A stretch of 64,000 bases of DNA from Acidimicrobiaceae bacterium (lineage in GTDB: Bacteria > Actinomycetota > Acidimicrobiia > Acidimicrobiales > Poriferisodalaceae): NCBI GenBank assembly GCA_026713105.1, contig JAPOPC010000049.1, forward strand, positions 1 through 64,000. Reading direction: 5' to 3'. Under the pieces are notes generated by a model. That model ran no database searches, had not been told where the DNA came from, and saw only the letters and a list, made by a program, of their open reading frames with translations. The position numbers and the translations under genes were made by a program. Below, piece after piece: positions 8,312 to 20,544 of this stretch. Numbering within the stretch: position 1 is the first letter of the stretch; each line of letters begins with the position of its first letter.

Positions 8312-8551
8312 TCAGCTCGGTCGGCGGCTGTTGCGGCGGCTCTGGGACACGGCTGCAATTCCTGTGCACACCGGAACGATGAGGATGAATATGCCAATCG
8401 AGAGGATGGCGAGCCAGCCCGCCACTGCCAGCAACGCCGTCGACGCGAACAGTGCCCTTACTCGCGCTCGTGGGAACGCGACAGCCACGGCGAGCGAGCC
8501 CAGTCCCACGATGAGGGACCCGAAGAAGATGATCGACCCGAGCGTTGCCAT
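8312..8551 (-). CDS. Small two-helix membrane protein
   Basis: 79 residues from ATG 8551, chosen because an exact AGGAGG lies five bases upstream. Two hydrophobic segments are visible (IIFFGSLIVGLGSLAVAVAF and ASTALLAVAGWLAILSIGIFILIVPV), with Arg-rich connections and a basic tail. No family recognised. It diverges from the deazaflavin-type nitroreductase gene that begins about 90 bases away on the other strand. Confidence 0.65.
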   Translation of the reverse strand: MATLGSIIFFGSLIVGLGSLAVAVAFPRARVRALFASTALLAVAGWLAILSIGIFILIVPVCTGIAAVSQSRRNSRRPS

Positions 8552-8643
8552 GGGCGCCTCCTGAGGTGCACAGCGCACAGAGGGTCCACGCGCAGCCTAA
8601 GACGCGCACTACCGGTACCTGCACGATCGGCGAGAATGGCGGT

Positions 8644-13238: not shown

Positions 13239-14354
13239 ATGCGCGGACGCCGCCAGCATTTGACCCGATACGCGACGGCCGCCGCTCTCGTCGGAGCGAT
13301 GGCCTTAGGAGTTGCTGCAACTCCACTGGGAGCGACTGGAGACGCGACAGAGGAACCTCCAGTAGCTGACGTGATGGTCCTTAGGTTCGGCGGCGCCGAC
13401 CGGTTCGAGACTTCGGTGCTGACCACCGAGGCGTTCACCGACTTCAAGGGCGACCACCTCGAGCAGGTGATGATCGTGTCGGGTTACAAGTGGCACGATG
13501 CCGTTATCGCGGCTCCGTTCGACTCACCGGTGCTGCTGACACGACGACACGAAGTGCCTCAGGCGACCATGGACTACCTGAGACGCTTCGACGCCCCATG
13601 GCCCACAATCATCAGCACAAAGGCCATTTCGCCCGCTGTCGACCAACAACTCAAGGACATCGGCCTCGAGGTGATGCGCATCGAGGGGTCCGACCAATTC
13701 CGTACCAGCGTGGCAGTCGCCAATTTCTACGGATTCGTTGGCCAGTACAAGGGCAGGCGGACCGTGATTTTGGCGAGCGGCCAGGTGTTCGCCGATGCAC
13801 TCGTCGCCGGACAGCTCTCCGCTCGCGAGAACTTGCCAATCCTGCTCACCCCTCCGAATTCCTTGCACTCGGCCGTCCGTGAGCACCTGATGTCCTACGA
13901 CGTGCAGCAGGTGATCATCATGGGCGGCACTGCCGCGGTCTCCGAGCGGGTCGAGGAGTCGATCGAGAATATGGGCATCCGAGTGCTGCGATTCGCCGGC
14001 GAGACACGGTTTGAGACCGCAGTCCACACGGCTCGCGTCACGAGACCCCTCCAGTGCTGGCGCGATGGCGAGGGCATTGCGGTTGGTCTCACCCGAGCGT
14101 GGGTGCCGTATGACGCGTTCAGTGCGGCACCGATGCTGGCCCGCTACGGCGCTCCGTTGTTGCTCACGCATCCAGACGAACTACCGCAGGCAACGATGGA
14201 CTATCTCGACGAGCTTCGCATCGCTCAGGCGAAGTGCGACGACGCGCCGGTGAAGCTCATCGTGATCGGAGGAGAAGCTGCGGTGTCCCAGGCCGCCCTC
14301 GACGCCTACCTGCAACGAGACGCAAAGGTCATTTCGGCCGACGAGCAGTCCTGA
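13239..14354 (+). CDS. Secreted protein with three cell-wall-binding repeats
   Basis: 371 residues. Signal peptide about 1-33 (MRGRRQHLTRYATAAALVGAMALGVAATPLG), then three CW_binding_2 units starting near residues 46 (LRFGGADRFETSV), 146 (IEGSDQFRTSVAVA) and 247 (LRFAGETRFETAV), each ending in an I.GG.AAVS-type strand. No catalytic domain follows, so this may be a pure anchoring or adhesion module. It lies 93 bases after the RCC1-like gene on the same strand, so the two may be expressed together as surface proteins. Confidence 0.85.
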   Translation: MRGRRQHLTRYATAAALVGAMALGVAATPLGATGDATEEPPVADVMVLRFGGADRFETSVLTTEAFTDFKGDHLEQVMIVSGYKWHDAVIAAPFDSPVLLTRRHEVPQATMDYLRRFDAPWPTIISTKAISPAVDQQLKDIGLEVMRIEGSDQFRTSVAVANFYGFVGQYKGRRTVILASGQVFADALVAGQLSARENLPILLTPPNSLHSAVREHLMSYDVQQVIIMGGTAAVSERVEESIENMGIRVLRFAGETRFETAVHTARVTRPLQCWRDGEGIAVGLTRAWVPYDAFSAAPMLARYGAPLLLTHPDELPQATMDYLDELRIAQAKCDDAPVKLIVIGGEAAVSQAALDAYLQRDAKVISADEQS

Positions 14355-16315: not shown

Positions 16316-17740
16316 ATGCTGAAAGACGCAGAGAGCGGGGCCAAGCAGACCAGCAGCACCCCGGCCCATGCCAGCCGCGGTGCGTCGTGGGGTGTGCACG
16401 GTCTGCGGCGGTTGGGCGCCGCCGAGCTCGCTGGGCTTTGCCGCGGCGAGCTCGAGTCTGTGCTGGGCGACATCGAGCGGGTCGTGAACCGGCTGGCCGG
16501 CTACCGCGTCGAGGTGCTCGGCGCGCTCGACGCGTTGAACGCCACAGGCGCCGGGCCCGATGGCGGTGTGCACCAGGCGCTGCGCGACGCGGCGGGGGTG
16601 TCACAGCGCGACGCACGCCGCATGGTGCGCATCGCGGCCAAGGCCCGCGAGCACGGCGAGGTGCTGGTGGCGATGTCCGATGGAGACATCACCCCCGATC
16701 AGGCCGAGGCGCTGTGCGACGCCCGCGTCCCCGAGGAGGTACGGGCCGAACTGGTGGGTACCGCGGCGGGCGAGGACACTGACGCGACACGTCGGCGCAT
16801 CCGTCGAGCCGAGGTCGATCACACCGTGGAGACCTCGATGGAGCGTTTCGAGCGGCAGCGCAAGGCCCGCGGGCCGGGCTGGCAGCGAGACTACGAGGGA
16901 ATGCTGCGGCTGTGGGCGAAGTTCGACCCCGCTGCGGGCGCGCAAATCGAGGCCGCGCTCGAGACGCTGCGCCGCGAGTACTGGGCTGATGACAAGCAGC
17001 TCTCCAGCGGGCGGCGCACCCCCGCCCAGCGAGACGCCGACGTACTGGCCTACGCGCTTGGGGGCATCACCGCCACCGACGCGGACGCCGCTGCGGTAGA
17101 CCGGCTGCGCGCCCGCGCCCGCCCAAACAGCCGAGCGCGAGGCGAAGCGGCCGACGGCGAGGGCTCCGACCAGTGGCCCGGCAGCGACGCTTGCTGCCAC
17201 CCAAACCACGGCGATTGCCTCGACGAGTTGACGGACGGCGACGGCCTCGAGCTGCGGCTGCCCCCAGCGCAGCTCAGCGTGCTGATCGGCCTCGACGCCC
17301 TGCGCGGCCGAACCGACGAGGTAGGCCTCACCGACGCCGGCACCGAACTGCCCCCCGAGATCGTGCGCAAGCTGGCATGCGACGCCGAGATCATCCCGGT
17401 AATCCTGGGCGACCCCGGCGGATCAGCCGACGTCGGCCGCGCCCGCCGCACCGTGCCACGACGGCTGCGACGCCTGCTCATCGCACGCGACCGACACTGC
17501 CGCTGGCCCGGATGCCACGCACCCCCGTCACGCTGCGACGCCCACCACATCTGGCACTGGTCCAAAGGCGGCCCCACCAACCTCGACAACCTCGTGCTGC
17601 TGTGCCACACCCACCACCACCACCTCCACGAACACGGCCTCGACATAGTCCCCCAACCCGACGGCACCTGGACCGTCATCCAACAGACTGAGCCAGACCC
17701 AGAGCCCCAACAAACCCCCGCACAAGCCCGAGCCCCCTAG
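16316..17740 (+). CDS. DUF222/HNH endonuclease protein (13E12-repeat type)
   Basis: 474 residues. The N-terminal and central part is the actinobacterial DUF222 (about 45-330: LESVLGDIERVVNRLAGYRVEVLGALD, GVSQRDARRMVRIAAKAREH, MLRLWAKFDPAAGAQIEAAL). The C-terminus is an HNH nuclease domain with zinc-binding Cys: RDRHCRWPGCHAPPSRC, DAHHIWHWSKGGPTNLDNLVLLCHTHHHHLHEHG. Such proteins are numerous in actinobacteria and are often linked to mobile elements. The gene sits between two remnants of the same transposase in direct orientation, so it may have been carried by, or acquired with, an IS-bounded unit. Confidence 0.9.
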   Translation: MLKDAESGAKQTSSTPAHASRGASWGVHGLRRLGAAELAGLCRGELESVLGDIERVVNRLAGYRVEVLGALDALNATGAGPDGGVHQALRDAAGVSQRDARRMVRIAAKAREHGEVLVAMSDGDITPDQAEALCDARVPEEVRAELVGTAAGEDTDATRRRIRRAEVDHTVETSMERFERQRKARGPGWQRDYEGMLRLWAKFDPAAGAQIEAALETLRREYWADDKQLSSGRRTPAQRDADVLAYALGGITATDADAAAVDRLRARARPNSRARGEAADGEGSDQWPGSDACCHPNHGDCLDELTDGDGLELRLPPAQLSVLIGLDALRGRTDEVGLTDAGTELPPEIVRKLACDAEIIPVILGDPGGSADVGRARRTVPRRLRRLLIARDRHCRWPGCHAPPSRCDAHHIWHWSKGGPTNLDNLVLLCHTHHHHLHEHGLDIVPQPDGTWTVIQQTEPDPEPQQTPAQARAP

Positions 17741-18138: not shown

Positions 18139-18744
18139 TCATCGCCGACGACGTCGGGGTTCTAGTGCGAGAGTCATCCGCCGCCGCTCACGCCGACTGT
18201 TGCCTCTCTCGCTGGCCCGCTTCACGACCACCGTGCGCGTCCACTTGTCGTGCCAGCTACGTCGGTGGACGTCGAGGAGGGGCGACAGAACCACCACCGC
18301 CCACGTCGCTGCTCCATAGATGAACGGCCATCGAGCTGTGAACGCCGTCGCGATGCCATAGACACAAAGACAGGTCGCAGGCGGAATGGCCGTACGCGCA
18401 AACGATTCGAGGAGCGGCGGTGCTTGGCCGTCGCTGATCCGAAGGACCTTGAGGCCAACGTTGCGCTTGCCGAGCGATTGACCCCTCCAGTTCGTCGCCC
18501 ACGCCTCGTAGAGGATGAATAGCGATGCGACAGCGAGGGCCACGCCCACGAGGTAGGAGGCGGCAATTCCGTTTCCGAATTCCGGAAATACCACTAAATC
18601 GTACGAAATGGCGAGAACCGAGACCACGATTCCGATGGCCAAGAACATGACCACAAGGTCAACGAGTCGAGCCGCGACTCGGTCAAGGAACGGAGCAGGT
18701 GTGACAAGGTCACCGGTACCAAGTTGGTACCTCGAGGGCGCCAT
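18139..18744 (-). CDS. RDD-family membrane protein
   Basis: 201 residues. APFLDRVAARLVDLVVMFLAIGIVV gives the R-D pattern of the first RDD helix. Then come a second hydrophobic pair (ASYLVGVALAVASLFILYEAW), RGQSLGKRNVGLKVLR and the closing DVHRRSWHDKWTRTVVV, all typical of the family. The Arg-rich C-terminus is cytoplasmic. Its ATG is only 7 bases after the stop of the thioredoxin-lipoprotein gene, so it is probably co-transcribed; RDD proteins often accompany envelope or redox proteins but have no fixed function. Confidence 0.85.
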   Translation of the reverse strand: MAPSRYQLGTGDLVTPAPFLDRVAARLVDLVVMFLAIGIVVSVLAISYDLVVFPEFGNGIAASYLVGVALAVASLFILYEAWATNWRGQSLGKRNVGLKVLRISDGQAPPLLESFARTAIPPATCLCVYGIATAFTARWPFIYGAATWAVVVLSPLLDVHRRSWHDKWTRTVVVKRASERGNSRRERRRMTLALEPRRRRR

Positions 18745-18751
18745 TGGGGCA

Positions 18752-19894
18752 TCAACCGGGGGTGAGCGCGTCGGTCACGATCGAACCGGGAATCGCGCCG
18801 CTGCCTCGCTCCTCGGTCCCGTCGGCACGGATCAACACCCAGCGGGGGTGGTAGCTGATGCCGAGTGCTCTCGCAATCTGATTGTCCTCATCGGGCAAGT
18901 TCGTGAGGTGGCCGAGGCCGTAGGAACTCACGAAGCCTGAAATGGCCGAAGTTGTGTCATGTCCCCCGACGCTGACCAGAGCCAGATTGTCGCCGTGTTG
19001 AGTCTTCAGCGCTGCGACCGCAGGCGCTTCTCGCTGGCAGTTCGGTCACCACGGCGCCCAGAACCACATCAGCACATCCCGGCCGGCCAATGCCCCGACA
19101 TCGAGGGTCGCTCCGTTCAGTTGGGGGACTGCCAACGCCAGCACTTGGGGGCGATCTTCGGTCGGTTCGGCTTGCGTCGTGGTGCCTTCTTCTTCCTTGC
19201 CGGCTTCGCCGTCGTCGGACTCGTCTTTCTCCTGGTCGGCTTCGTCTACTCGGCCACCCTCGCCGTCATCACCCGACTCGCCGCCGTCCTCGTCTGCGTC
19301 GTCATCGCCCGATTCATGGCCGTCGCCGGCATCGTCGTCGCCCGATTCGTGGCCGGCGTCAGCATCGTCGTCGCGGCCTTCGTCTACGTCGTCGTCCCGA
19401 CCTTCGTCCTTGCCACCCGACTCGCCGTCGCTCTCTTCGCCTTCGTCGCCGTTGTCGCCGTCGCCTTCGCCTGCGGCGTCGTCCTCGTCGCTGCCTTCGT
19501 CTACGCCGTCGCCCGATTCGTGGCTGGCGTCGCCTTCGCCTGCGGCGCCGTCGTCGTCGCGGCCTTCGTCTACGCCGTCGCCCGATTCGTGGCCGGCGTC
19601 GCCGTCGCCCGATTCGTGGCCACCTTCGGCATCGTCATCGTCGGGGTGACGATCGTCTCCATCGACATCGCCCAGCTCACGGTTGTCGACTGCATCGTCG
19701 CTGGTCGTGGCACCCGTCGTCGGCGTGATCGCGACGGTGGTTGTCGCCGAATCCTGGACGAGCGTCTGCGGCGTCTCGTCGCTGTCACTGCTGCAACTGG
19801 CCACAAGACCTGCACTGGCGAGACAGCAGGCGAAGAGCACCGTCGAACGCTGCAGGAATCGGGCCACGTTGGCGAGCGTAATCCGCCTCGGCAT
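18752..19894 (-). CDS. Probable selenoprotein: lipoprotein with acidic repeat linker and UxxC thioredoxin domain
   Basis: A normal reading stops at TGA 19046-19048, but the frame stays open beyond it to a TGA at 18752-18754, giving 380 residues. Residues 1-34 are a lipoprotein signal (LVASC, Cys34). Residues 65-230 are an Asp/Glu/Gly/Ser-rich repetitive linker (GHESGD, VDEGRDDD). From about 240 the sequence is a TlpA/MPT53-type thioredoxin: VPQLNGATLDVGALAGRDVL, MWFWAPW, then the TGA at 283, PNCQREAPAVAAL, later TNLPDEDNQIARALG and a cis-Pro-like YHPRWVLIRADGT. The TGA exactly replaces the first Cys of CxxC, giving UPNC. A hairpin with a GGUC loop starts 17 bases after the TGA (19008-19028). 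A single nonsense mutation is the main alternative. The downstream RDD gene begins 7 bases after the stop. Confidence 0.7.
19008..19028 (-). promoter_or_regulatory. Candidate bacterial SECIS hairpin
   Basis: On the minus strand, 5 bp (AGCGC with GCGCT), a bulged C and 3 bp (TGC with GCA) close a GGTC loop. The loop begins 26 bases after the TGA at 19046-19048. Bacterial SECIS elements are short hairpins directly after the UGA with a G/U-containing loop; that of E. coli fdhF also has a GGUC loop and a bulged base. The hairpin lies inside coding sequence for the thioredoxin domain. Confidence 0.55.
19250..19642 (-). repeat. Repetitive acidic linker coding region
   Basis: Within the thioredoxin-lipoprotein gene, imperfect repeats encode GHESGD, ESGDGVDEG and DDDAAGEGD units (about residues 85-215). 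The DNA shows recurring GATTCGTGGC and GTCGTC blocks on the plus strand. Such a tract could change length by slippage. It is a linker between lipid anchor and thioredoxin domain, presumably extended and highly negatively charged. Confidence 0.7.
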
Positions 19895-19931
19895 GGACTT
19901 CGATCCCGCGACTGGCCATTAGTTTCACGCC

Positions 19932-20414
19932 GTGCCGCGCCTGTTTGTCGCCGTGTGGCCGCCCGCGACACTTGTCGACGACCTGGCGGTTCTGCCGCGC
20001 CCGCCTGCTCCGGGCGTCAGCTGGACGAAGCCGCACCGGTTGCACGTCACGCTTCGATTCCTCGGCGAGTGCGATCAGGACGAAGCACTGAGCACCCTGG
20101 AGGCTGTCTCATTTCCTGCCGCAGGGGTAACGCTCGGTCCAGCCCCCGAACGGCTGGGACGGGGCGTCATCATGCTGCCGGCCGCAGGCGTCGACCAGCT
20201 CGCTGCATCGGTCATCGATGCCACCCGGTTCATCGGCGAACCGCCCCCGGATCATCCCTTCGTCGGCCACATCACCGTCGCGCGGTTCCGGCGACGTCCG
20301 CCGTCGGTGGACTGGCCGCGCATCCACGAAACCTTCGACGTTTCCCGGGTCAGCCTCGTCGAATCGACACCCTGGGGCGAGTACGTGGACGTTGCCACCT
20401 TTCCGCTCACGTGA
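19932..20414 (+). CDS. thpR: RNA 2',3'-cyclic phosphodiesterase
   Basis: 160 residues of the 2H phosphoesterase superfamily. The two catalytic HxTx motifs are H38-V-T40 (LHVTLRFLGE) and H113-I-T115 (VGHITVARFR), spaced as in ThpR/LigT. The opening LFVAVWPP and the ending with VESTPWGEYVDVATFPL match the family. GTG start at 19932, with only 37 bases to the divergent thioredoxin-lipoprotein start, so the two promoters must overlap. Confidence 0.9.
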   Translation: MPRLFVAVWPPATLVDDLAVLPRPPAPGVSWTKPHRLHVTLRFLGECDQDEALSTLEAVSFPAAGVTLGPAPERLGRGVIMLPAAGVDQLAASVIDATRFIGEPPPDHPFVGHITVARFRRRPPSVDWPRIHETFDVSRVSLVESTPWGEYVDVATFPLT

Positions 20415-20544
20415 AGCGGGCATCGGAGGGCGCGAATCAGGCCATCGGAATGTGACAGCCTGAGACCGTGCGGCGCAGCGAAGACGCCCCACGAGCACCG
20501 AGACAACATCGCATGGGGCAGGGCCGGTCACAGCAGGGGGAACC

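Follow-up and report, generated by a model that had tools for sequence, protein, structure and literature searches.

DsbF and MPT53 (DsbE) of M. tuberculosis are Cys-x-x-Cys proteins that have been proposed to act as disulfide-forming oxidases, and DsbF is a lipoprotein. Thioredoxin-like proteins with UxxC or UxxU motifs, where U is selenocysteine (Sec), are an already known kind. The available parts of two reviews list Sec-containing Trx-like families with UxxC and Prx-like families with UxxC or UxxU (PMC9312934, PMC13188914), among them a 'Redoxin family protein' (PF08534, UxxC), a thiol-disulfide isomerase-like protein (PF13905, UxxC) and a Prx-like thiol:disulfide oxidoreductase (PF00578, UxxC/UxxU). 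Trx-like and Prx-like UxxC proteins and some UxxU forms are also described in the accessible text of a study of ocean metagenomes (PMC2398784). Actinobacteria are named, in the sections available, as holders of orphan SelD or as donors or recipients of the Sec trait and not for a DsbF-like family (PMC5029168), and excerpts from work on a sponge metagenome report that SelA and SelB co-occur in most symbiont bins but that most relatives of these symbionts lack them (PMC5649159). The titles of open-licence literature on selenoproteins of Acidimicrobiia and Actinomycetota revealed no description of a DsbF-like Sec lipoprotein family.

We analysed a window of 64,000 nucleotides from Acidimicrobiaceae bacterium (assembly GCA_026713105.1, contig JAPOPC010000049.1, positions 1 to 64,000), to which all positions refer unless another contig is named. 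The gene described here is almost certainly the Sec form of an actinobacterial DsbF/MPT53-like lipoprotein, in which an in-frame UGA would be read as Sec.

Gene structure and predicted lipoprotein architecture

The whole gene occupies 18752..19894 on the minus strand and would encode 380 residues including Sec283. It starts with an ATG at 19894; an alternative GTG start on the same strand (19867-19865) aligns with a GTG in the nine genus relatives compared. The frame reads GRDVLMWFWAPW, then TGA (19048-19046), then PNCQREAPAVAALK, and stays open until a second TGA (18754-18752), the true terminator. The original prediction had the frame open past the TGA at 19046-19048 to 18752 with a cis-Pro region, and re-reading bore this out: the cis-Pro region, YHPRWVLIRADGT, is present downstream of the in-frame TGA.

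The putative signal peptide (19793..19894) ends in a lipobox-like LVAS-C with Cys34, a motif read by eye. It is followed by a strongly acidic, partly tandem-repeated linker of about 205 residues (19166..19792; 42% D+E and 4% K+R in the 204 residues measured) and by a thioredoxin domain of the DsbF/MPT53/ResA type (18755..19165), which contains the in-frame TGA. Lipid anchor and acidic linker together had originally been called an unusual architecture. Lipobox-like leaders were seen by eye, uncounted, in many relatives across the family (LLAG-C or LLAS-C in the genus), and DsbF of M. tuberculosis, the nearest solved structure, is a lipoprotein too, so a lipid anchor would be no oddity and this part of the claim fell. 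By eye, the linkers of these relatives are mostly shorter, and those of the genus span 172-216 residues with 32-43% D+E (ten measurable genes including the window gene; one further gene was masked). The long acidic linker is a trait of the genus and not of the selenoprotein family.

A 498-codon open frame on the plus strand (18959-20455) runs antisense to the Sec gene and is probably no more than a side effect of the GC-rich acidic repeat.

Predicted fold and redox function

Prediction with 45 aligned rows yielded a domain structure with a pLDDT of 94.7 and a pTM of 0.90, which replaced a poor single-sequence prediction (pLDDT 40.5). The nearest solved structures, by sequence as well as by structure, were M. 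tuberculosis DsbF (3ios, TMq 0.82) and MPT53/DsbE (1lu4, TMq 0.78), with ResA next among the structure matches; sequence-profile matches in the PDB came in the same order (3ios 1.2e-36, 1lu4 1.5e-29). In the predicted domain the TGA (19046..19048) comes after a strand and before the first active-site helix, the place of the attacking Cys in thioredoxins, and comparison with homologues assigns it to Sec283, the first residue of a putative UxxC redox motif. Cys286 (TGC, 19037..19039) would be the resolving residue of U-P-N-C. The cis-Pro position is taken by Pro350 (18845..18847, in YHPRW), which is invariant in an alignment of 12 rows, all TGA genes; in the numbering of this alignment W39, residue 40 (the Sec, written as C), C43 and P107 are invariant.

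In the mechanism that we propose, SelB and Sec-tRNA would bind the hairpin downstream of the TGA, and Sec would be inserted at the UGA (19046-19048). The protein would be exported and lipidated at Cys34, with the long flexible acidic linker holding the domain at the outer face of the membrane. Sec283 may then attack a disulfide in the substrate or an oxidised sulfur, Cys286 would resolve the bond via a selenenylsulfide, and electrons would probably be delivered by a CcdA/DsbD-type membrane protein.

For the last step we give a reductase or repair role some preference over that of an oxidase. The host genome encodes a DsbD_TM family protein (31.3 bits, cut-off 27.1), and a search of this genome for VKOR gave nothing above the cut-off (27.5), which together lean towards a reductive role. 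A selenoprotein that works as a disulfide-forming oxidase would also be compatible with the Sec reading, and the nearest solved relatives, M. tuberculosis DsbF and MPT53, are weakly in favour of this; the DsbD_TM protein and the lack of a VKOR above cut-off in a 94% complete genome speak weakly against it, as does the lowering of the redox potential by Sec, and we regard it as the distinctly less probable direction. A short hydrophobic frame in the window (8345-8563) scored 22.4 bits against the VKOR cut-off of 27.5 and was taken as a chance match.

Among 150 loci compared, many of them with short flanks, no redox partner linked to the gene was found. An RDD-family membrane protein is encoded just downstream of the Sec gene (18139-18744, minus strand) and was rejected as an operon partner, since none of the other loci matched it; a LigT-like phosphoesterase upstream (19932-20414, plus strand, divergent) matched only in genus loci and was likewise rejected. 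Further genes in the window code for a protein with CWB2 cell-wall-binding repeats (13239-14354, plus strand) and a DUF222 protein (16316-17740, plus strand).

Conservation of the in-frame TGA

If the TGA were a real stop, only a short acidic lipoprotein would be made, and the thioredoxin half would be a relic or an error. The standard reading does stop there and gives a 282-residue protein, and the openness of the frame beyond it is, taken alone, unremarkable: the window is GC-rich, and 18 of its 58 long frames with a terminal TGA continue for at least 97 more codons. However, the thioredoxin domain needs parts from both sides of the TGA, which splits it as VLMWFWAPW-U-PNCQREAPAVAAL with the motif FWAPW-U-PNC. 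The piece after the TGA alone matched the Pfam family Thioredoxin_8 below threshold (E 8e-4), and the read-through protein matched four families of the thioredoxin clan above cut-off, with Redoxin (PF08534, E 4.7e-10) as the best and Thioredoxin_8, AhpC-TSA and Thioredoxin as the others. The frame after the TGA is also under purifying selection, with pN/pS values of 0.22-0.35 in nine genus comparisons (one indel-bearing relative left out). The same TGA occurs in different, separately assembled species, and in the host family 37 of 39 genomes retain the frame with a TGA, 36 with the single TGA only and one with a TAA as well; the two genomes that lack a TGA-bearing match are 77 and 93% complete. 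In all 30 family loci read, the TGA precedes xxC. Termination at this codon is therefore very improbable.

Beyond the family, 397 genomes of the order were examined. The family profile matched 206 of these at 1e-15, and for at least 97 a listed match contains a TGA. The original prediction had equated the TGA with the first, reactive Cys of thioredoxins, and the homologues agree: we collected 144 distinct regions, of which 66 were UxxC, 16 UxxU and 62 CxxC, all at the same residue, with TGA in 82 and TGC or TGT in 62. These numbers are neither frequencies nor a census, since the regions were partly hand-picked, with UxxU and Cys-only loci deliberately included. The region pattern permitted only TGA, TGC or TGT at the Sec position, TGG being outside its reach, and it missed six TGA loci with variants such as FWAPT-U and LWAPW-U (L163, L193, L194, L196-L198), which were examined in addition to the 144 regions. 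The regions from Lentzea, Nonomuraea and Mycolicibacter were Cys forms, further Cys homologues came from Mycobacteriaceae and other actinobacteria, and the closest named relatives of the window gene are Acidimicrobiia MAGs. In other classes of the phylum, a TGA stands before xxC in 20 of 20 loci, which were chosen among the listed matches because they bear a TGA (three were found only by a looser motif).

The genus carries a second, paralogous TGA gene, located in the host genome on contig 77 (34000-38000). This paralogue, a putative Sec DsbF-like lipoprotein, has FWAPW-U-PAC and the same hairpin and no long acidic linker. At one locus of another genome (L188, contig 154 of G243), CxxC and UxxC copies are adjacent, with their motifs 750 bases apart.

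The hairpin downstream of the TGA

The putative SECIS hairpin lies at 19008..19028 on the minus strand. A 25-nt region folds into AGCGC-(bulged C)-UGC-GGUC-GCA-GCGCU (19028-19008), with one bulged C and an apical GGUC loop (19019-19016) that begins 26 nt past the UGA, an exact match to the coordinates, bulged base and loop first predicted. The folding energy of the single sequence is not significant (z scores of -1.4 over 25 nt and +0.4 over 43 nt, the longer stretch favouring another fold). The loop sequence GGTC starts precisely at offset +29, counted from the T of the TGA, in 81 of 81 Sec regions (the 82 minus L169, whose flank is too short) versus 13 of 62 Cys regions, and all four apical pairs are formed in 76 of the former versus one of the latter; the Cys regions come largely from other actinobacterial families and thus differ from the Sec regions in more than the Cys.

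Among 54 distinct sequences, three of the four stem pairs showed changes on both sides (UA/CG/GC; GC/AU/UA; CG/GU/GC). The covariation score of 0.594 compares with an average of 0.169 after shuffling and a maximum of 0.203 when the partners were slid. Of the five covariation measures, two did not rise above shuffles (both-side pairs, 3 vs 2.7, with 342 of 500 shuffles as high; further pair types, 6 vs 5.9, with 344 of 500); these measures have little power with four pairs, yet are the least inflated by relatedness. The pS values in the nine hairpin codons (0.00-0.12) were low compared with the codons that follow (0.32-0.56; nine genus comparisons). Together, the TGA in relatives, the fixed, covarying hairpin and the Pfam match of the read-through protein take the observation beyond chance.

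Outside the order, 17 strict-motif TGA genes showed GGTC at +29 in eight cases and the four pairs in two; three loose-motif loci of other classes have GGTC at the hairpin position (by eye). TGA homologues from other classes (L222-L241) often display GGTT or a different stem at this position. As the hairpin is often not kept outside the order, other classes may use SECIS variants.

A covariance model built on the hairpin and run against the host genome scored the window gene, which is part of the model, at 52.9 bits and the paralogue at 56.8 bits, with the next match at 21.4 bits. As scoring covered 150 of the 6163 first-look candidates and did not recover the known hairpin of selD, this search is no census of selenoproteins. 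For six of 17 weaker matches (L203-L208), a simple TGA-to-GGTC test gave no real-looking protein.

The E. coli fdhF SECIS likewise has a GGUC apical loop downstream of its UGA. The GGTC offset is 21 in E. coli fdhF and 35 in the host selD (both by eye), compared with 29 in the window gene.

Selenocysteine machinery of the host genome

The host genome (3.96 Mb in 117 contigs, 94% complete) was searched for the Sec machinery, and selA, selB, selD and a tRNA-Sec were all found. On contig 37, selB (274 bits) adjoins selA (383 bits), and the same contig carries the tRNA-Sec, which scored 67 bits and has the anticodon tca according to ARAGORN. A second match above the tRNA-Sec cut-off, on contig 41, proved to be a tRNA-Ser. 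The selD gene (360 bits), located on contig 31, likewise contains an in-frame TGA (SHGAG-U-ACKLG), downstream of which lies a GGUC-loop hairpin; by this sequence pattern, it is itself a predicted selenoprotein gene.

In the order, selA was present in 237 of the 397 genomes examined. Among the 97 genomes for which a TGA homologue is listed, 94 have it and the other three are 83, 74 and 73% complete; it also occurs in three of the nine listed genomes with Cys forms only. A Fisher test of this co-occurrence gave a p of 2.7e-21, a value obtained by treating unlisted matches as non-TGA and without correction for relatedness.

A reading of the TGA as Trp or another ordinary residue, by genome recoding or a near-cognate tRNA, is hardly credible: the TGA lies within a frame and recoding of TGA exists in some bacteria, but the same gene terminates in TGA, so that TGA is not recoded wholesale, 62 homologue regions (from a pattern that allowed only TGA, TGC or TGT) have TGC or TGT, and tRNA-Sec, selA, selB and selD are present with the hairpin accompanying the TGA. 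The gene had been put forward as a probable selenoprotein; machinery, homologous TGAs and the fixed, covarying hairpin all support this Sec reading.

A UxxU group and the extent of the family

Within the order, a set of homologues (L162-L177) has a UxxU motif, mostly FWAPW-U-PF-U, with two in-frame TGAs nine bases apart and one hairpin. In one locus (L172), two UxxU copies stand in tandem. A quick tree of 147 regions placed 15 UxxU rows in one group (support 99) beside the UxxC rows, and the three states UxxC, UxxU and CxxC need seven changes on it compared with a shuffled mean of 58; this tree is unrooted, with 58 of 144 inner branches open and with L241 and 15 near-identical genus rows left out. 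As far as these sequences indicate, one hairpin would have to serve two UGAs nine bases apart, and the group therefore offers a natural test of one SECIS serving two nearby UGAs.

These results may outline a family of extracytoplasmic DsbF-like lipoproteins, as yet without a model of its own, that spans the phylum Actinomycetota, in which Sec (UxxC) would be the normal state, one derived group would have acquired a UxxU diselenide motif with two UGAs and one hairpin, and the acidic linker would belong to one genus of Acidimicrobiia. We see this wider scheme as evenly balanced between right and wrong.

Comparison with known systems

Ordinary gene calling stops before the active site and would do so in other members of the family, so that this widespread surface redox enzyme, whose hosts are mostly uncultured actinobacteria, is probably annotated wrongly. 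The family would give these bacteria one more reason to retain the Sec machinery. In the parts of the literature available to us, neither the breadth of Sec in a DsbF-like family (in the order, 97 or more of the 397 genomes; also in other classes) nor a UxxU group with one hairpin for two UGAs was found described.

Three NCBIfam families, NF041057, NF041054 and NF040769, are likewise of the thioredoxin fold with Sec members, and NF041057 is a lipoprotein family. We scanned three proteins, namely the window domain, the host paralogue and one UxxU relative, against NCBIfam, and all matches stayed far below cut-off: NF041054 (ResA-like WAxxUGC) matched the window protein with 34.8 (cut-off 300), NF041057 (Rcas_1661 family thioredoxin-like (seleno)lipoprotein) only the host paralogue with 17.8 (cut-off 190), and NF040769 (SelL-related) only the UxxU relative with 17.2 (cut-off 120).

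An actinobacterial DsbF-like lipoprotein is not named among the Sec families in the available text of the reviews and the metagenome study, and is set apart from them by their descriptions only (PMC9312934, PMC13188914, PMC2398784). The review families, as there described, share the fold and the UxxC or UxxU motif with the window protein, and PF08534 is its best Pfam match. Compared with DsbF and MPT53, its nearest solved relatives, the window protein differs in the predicted Sec at the first position of the motif and in its long acidic linker.
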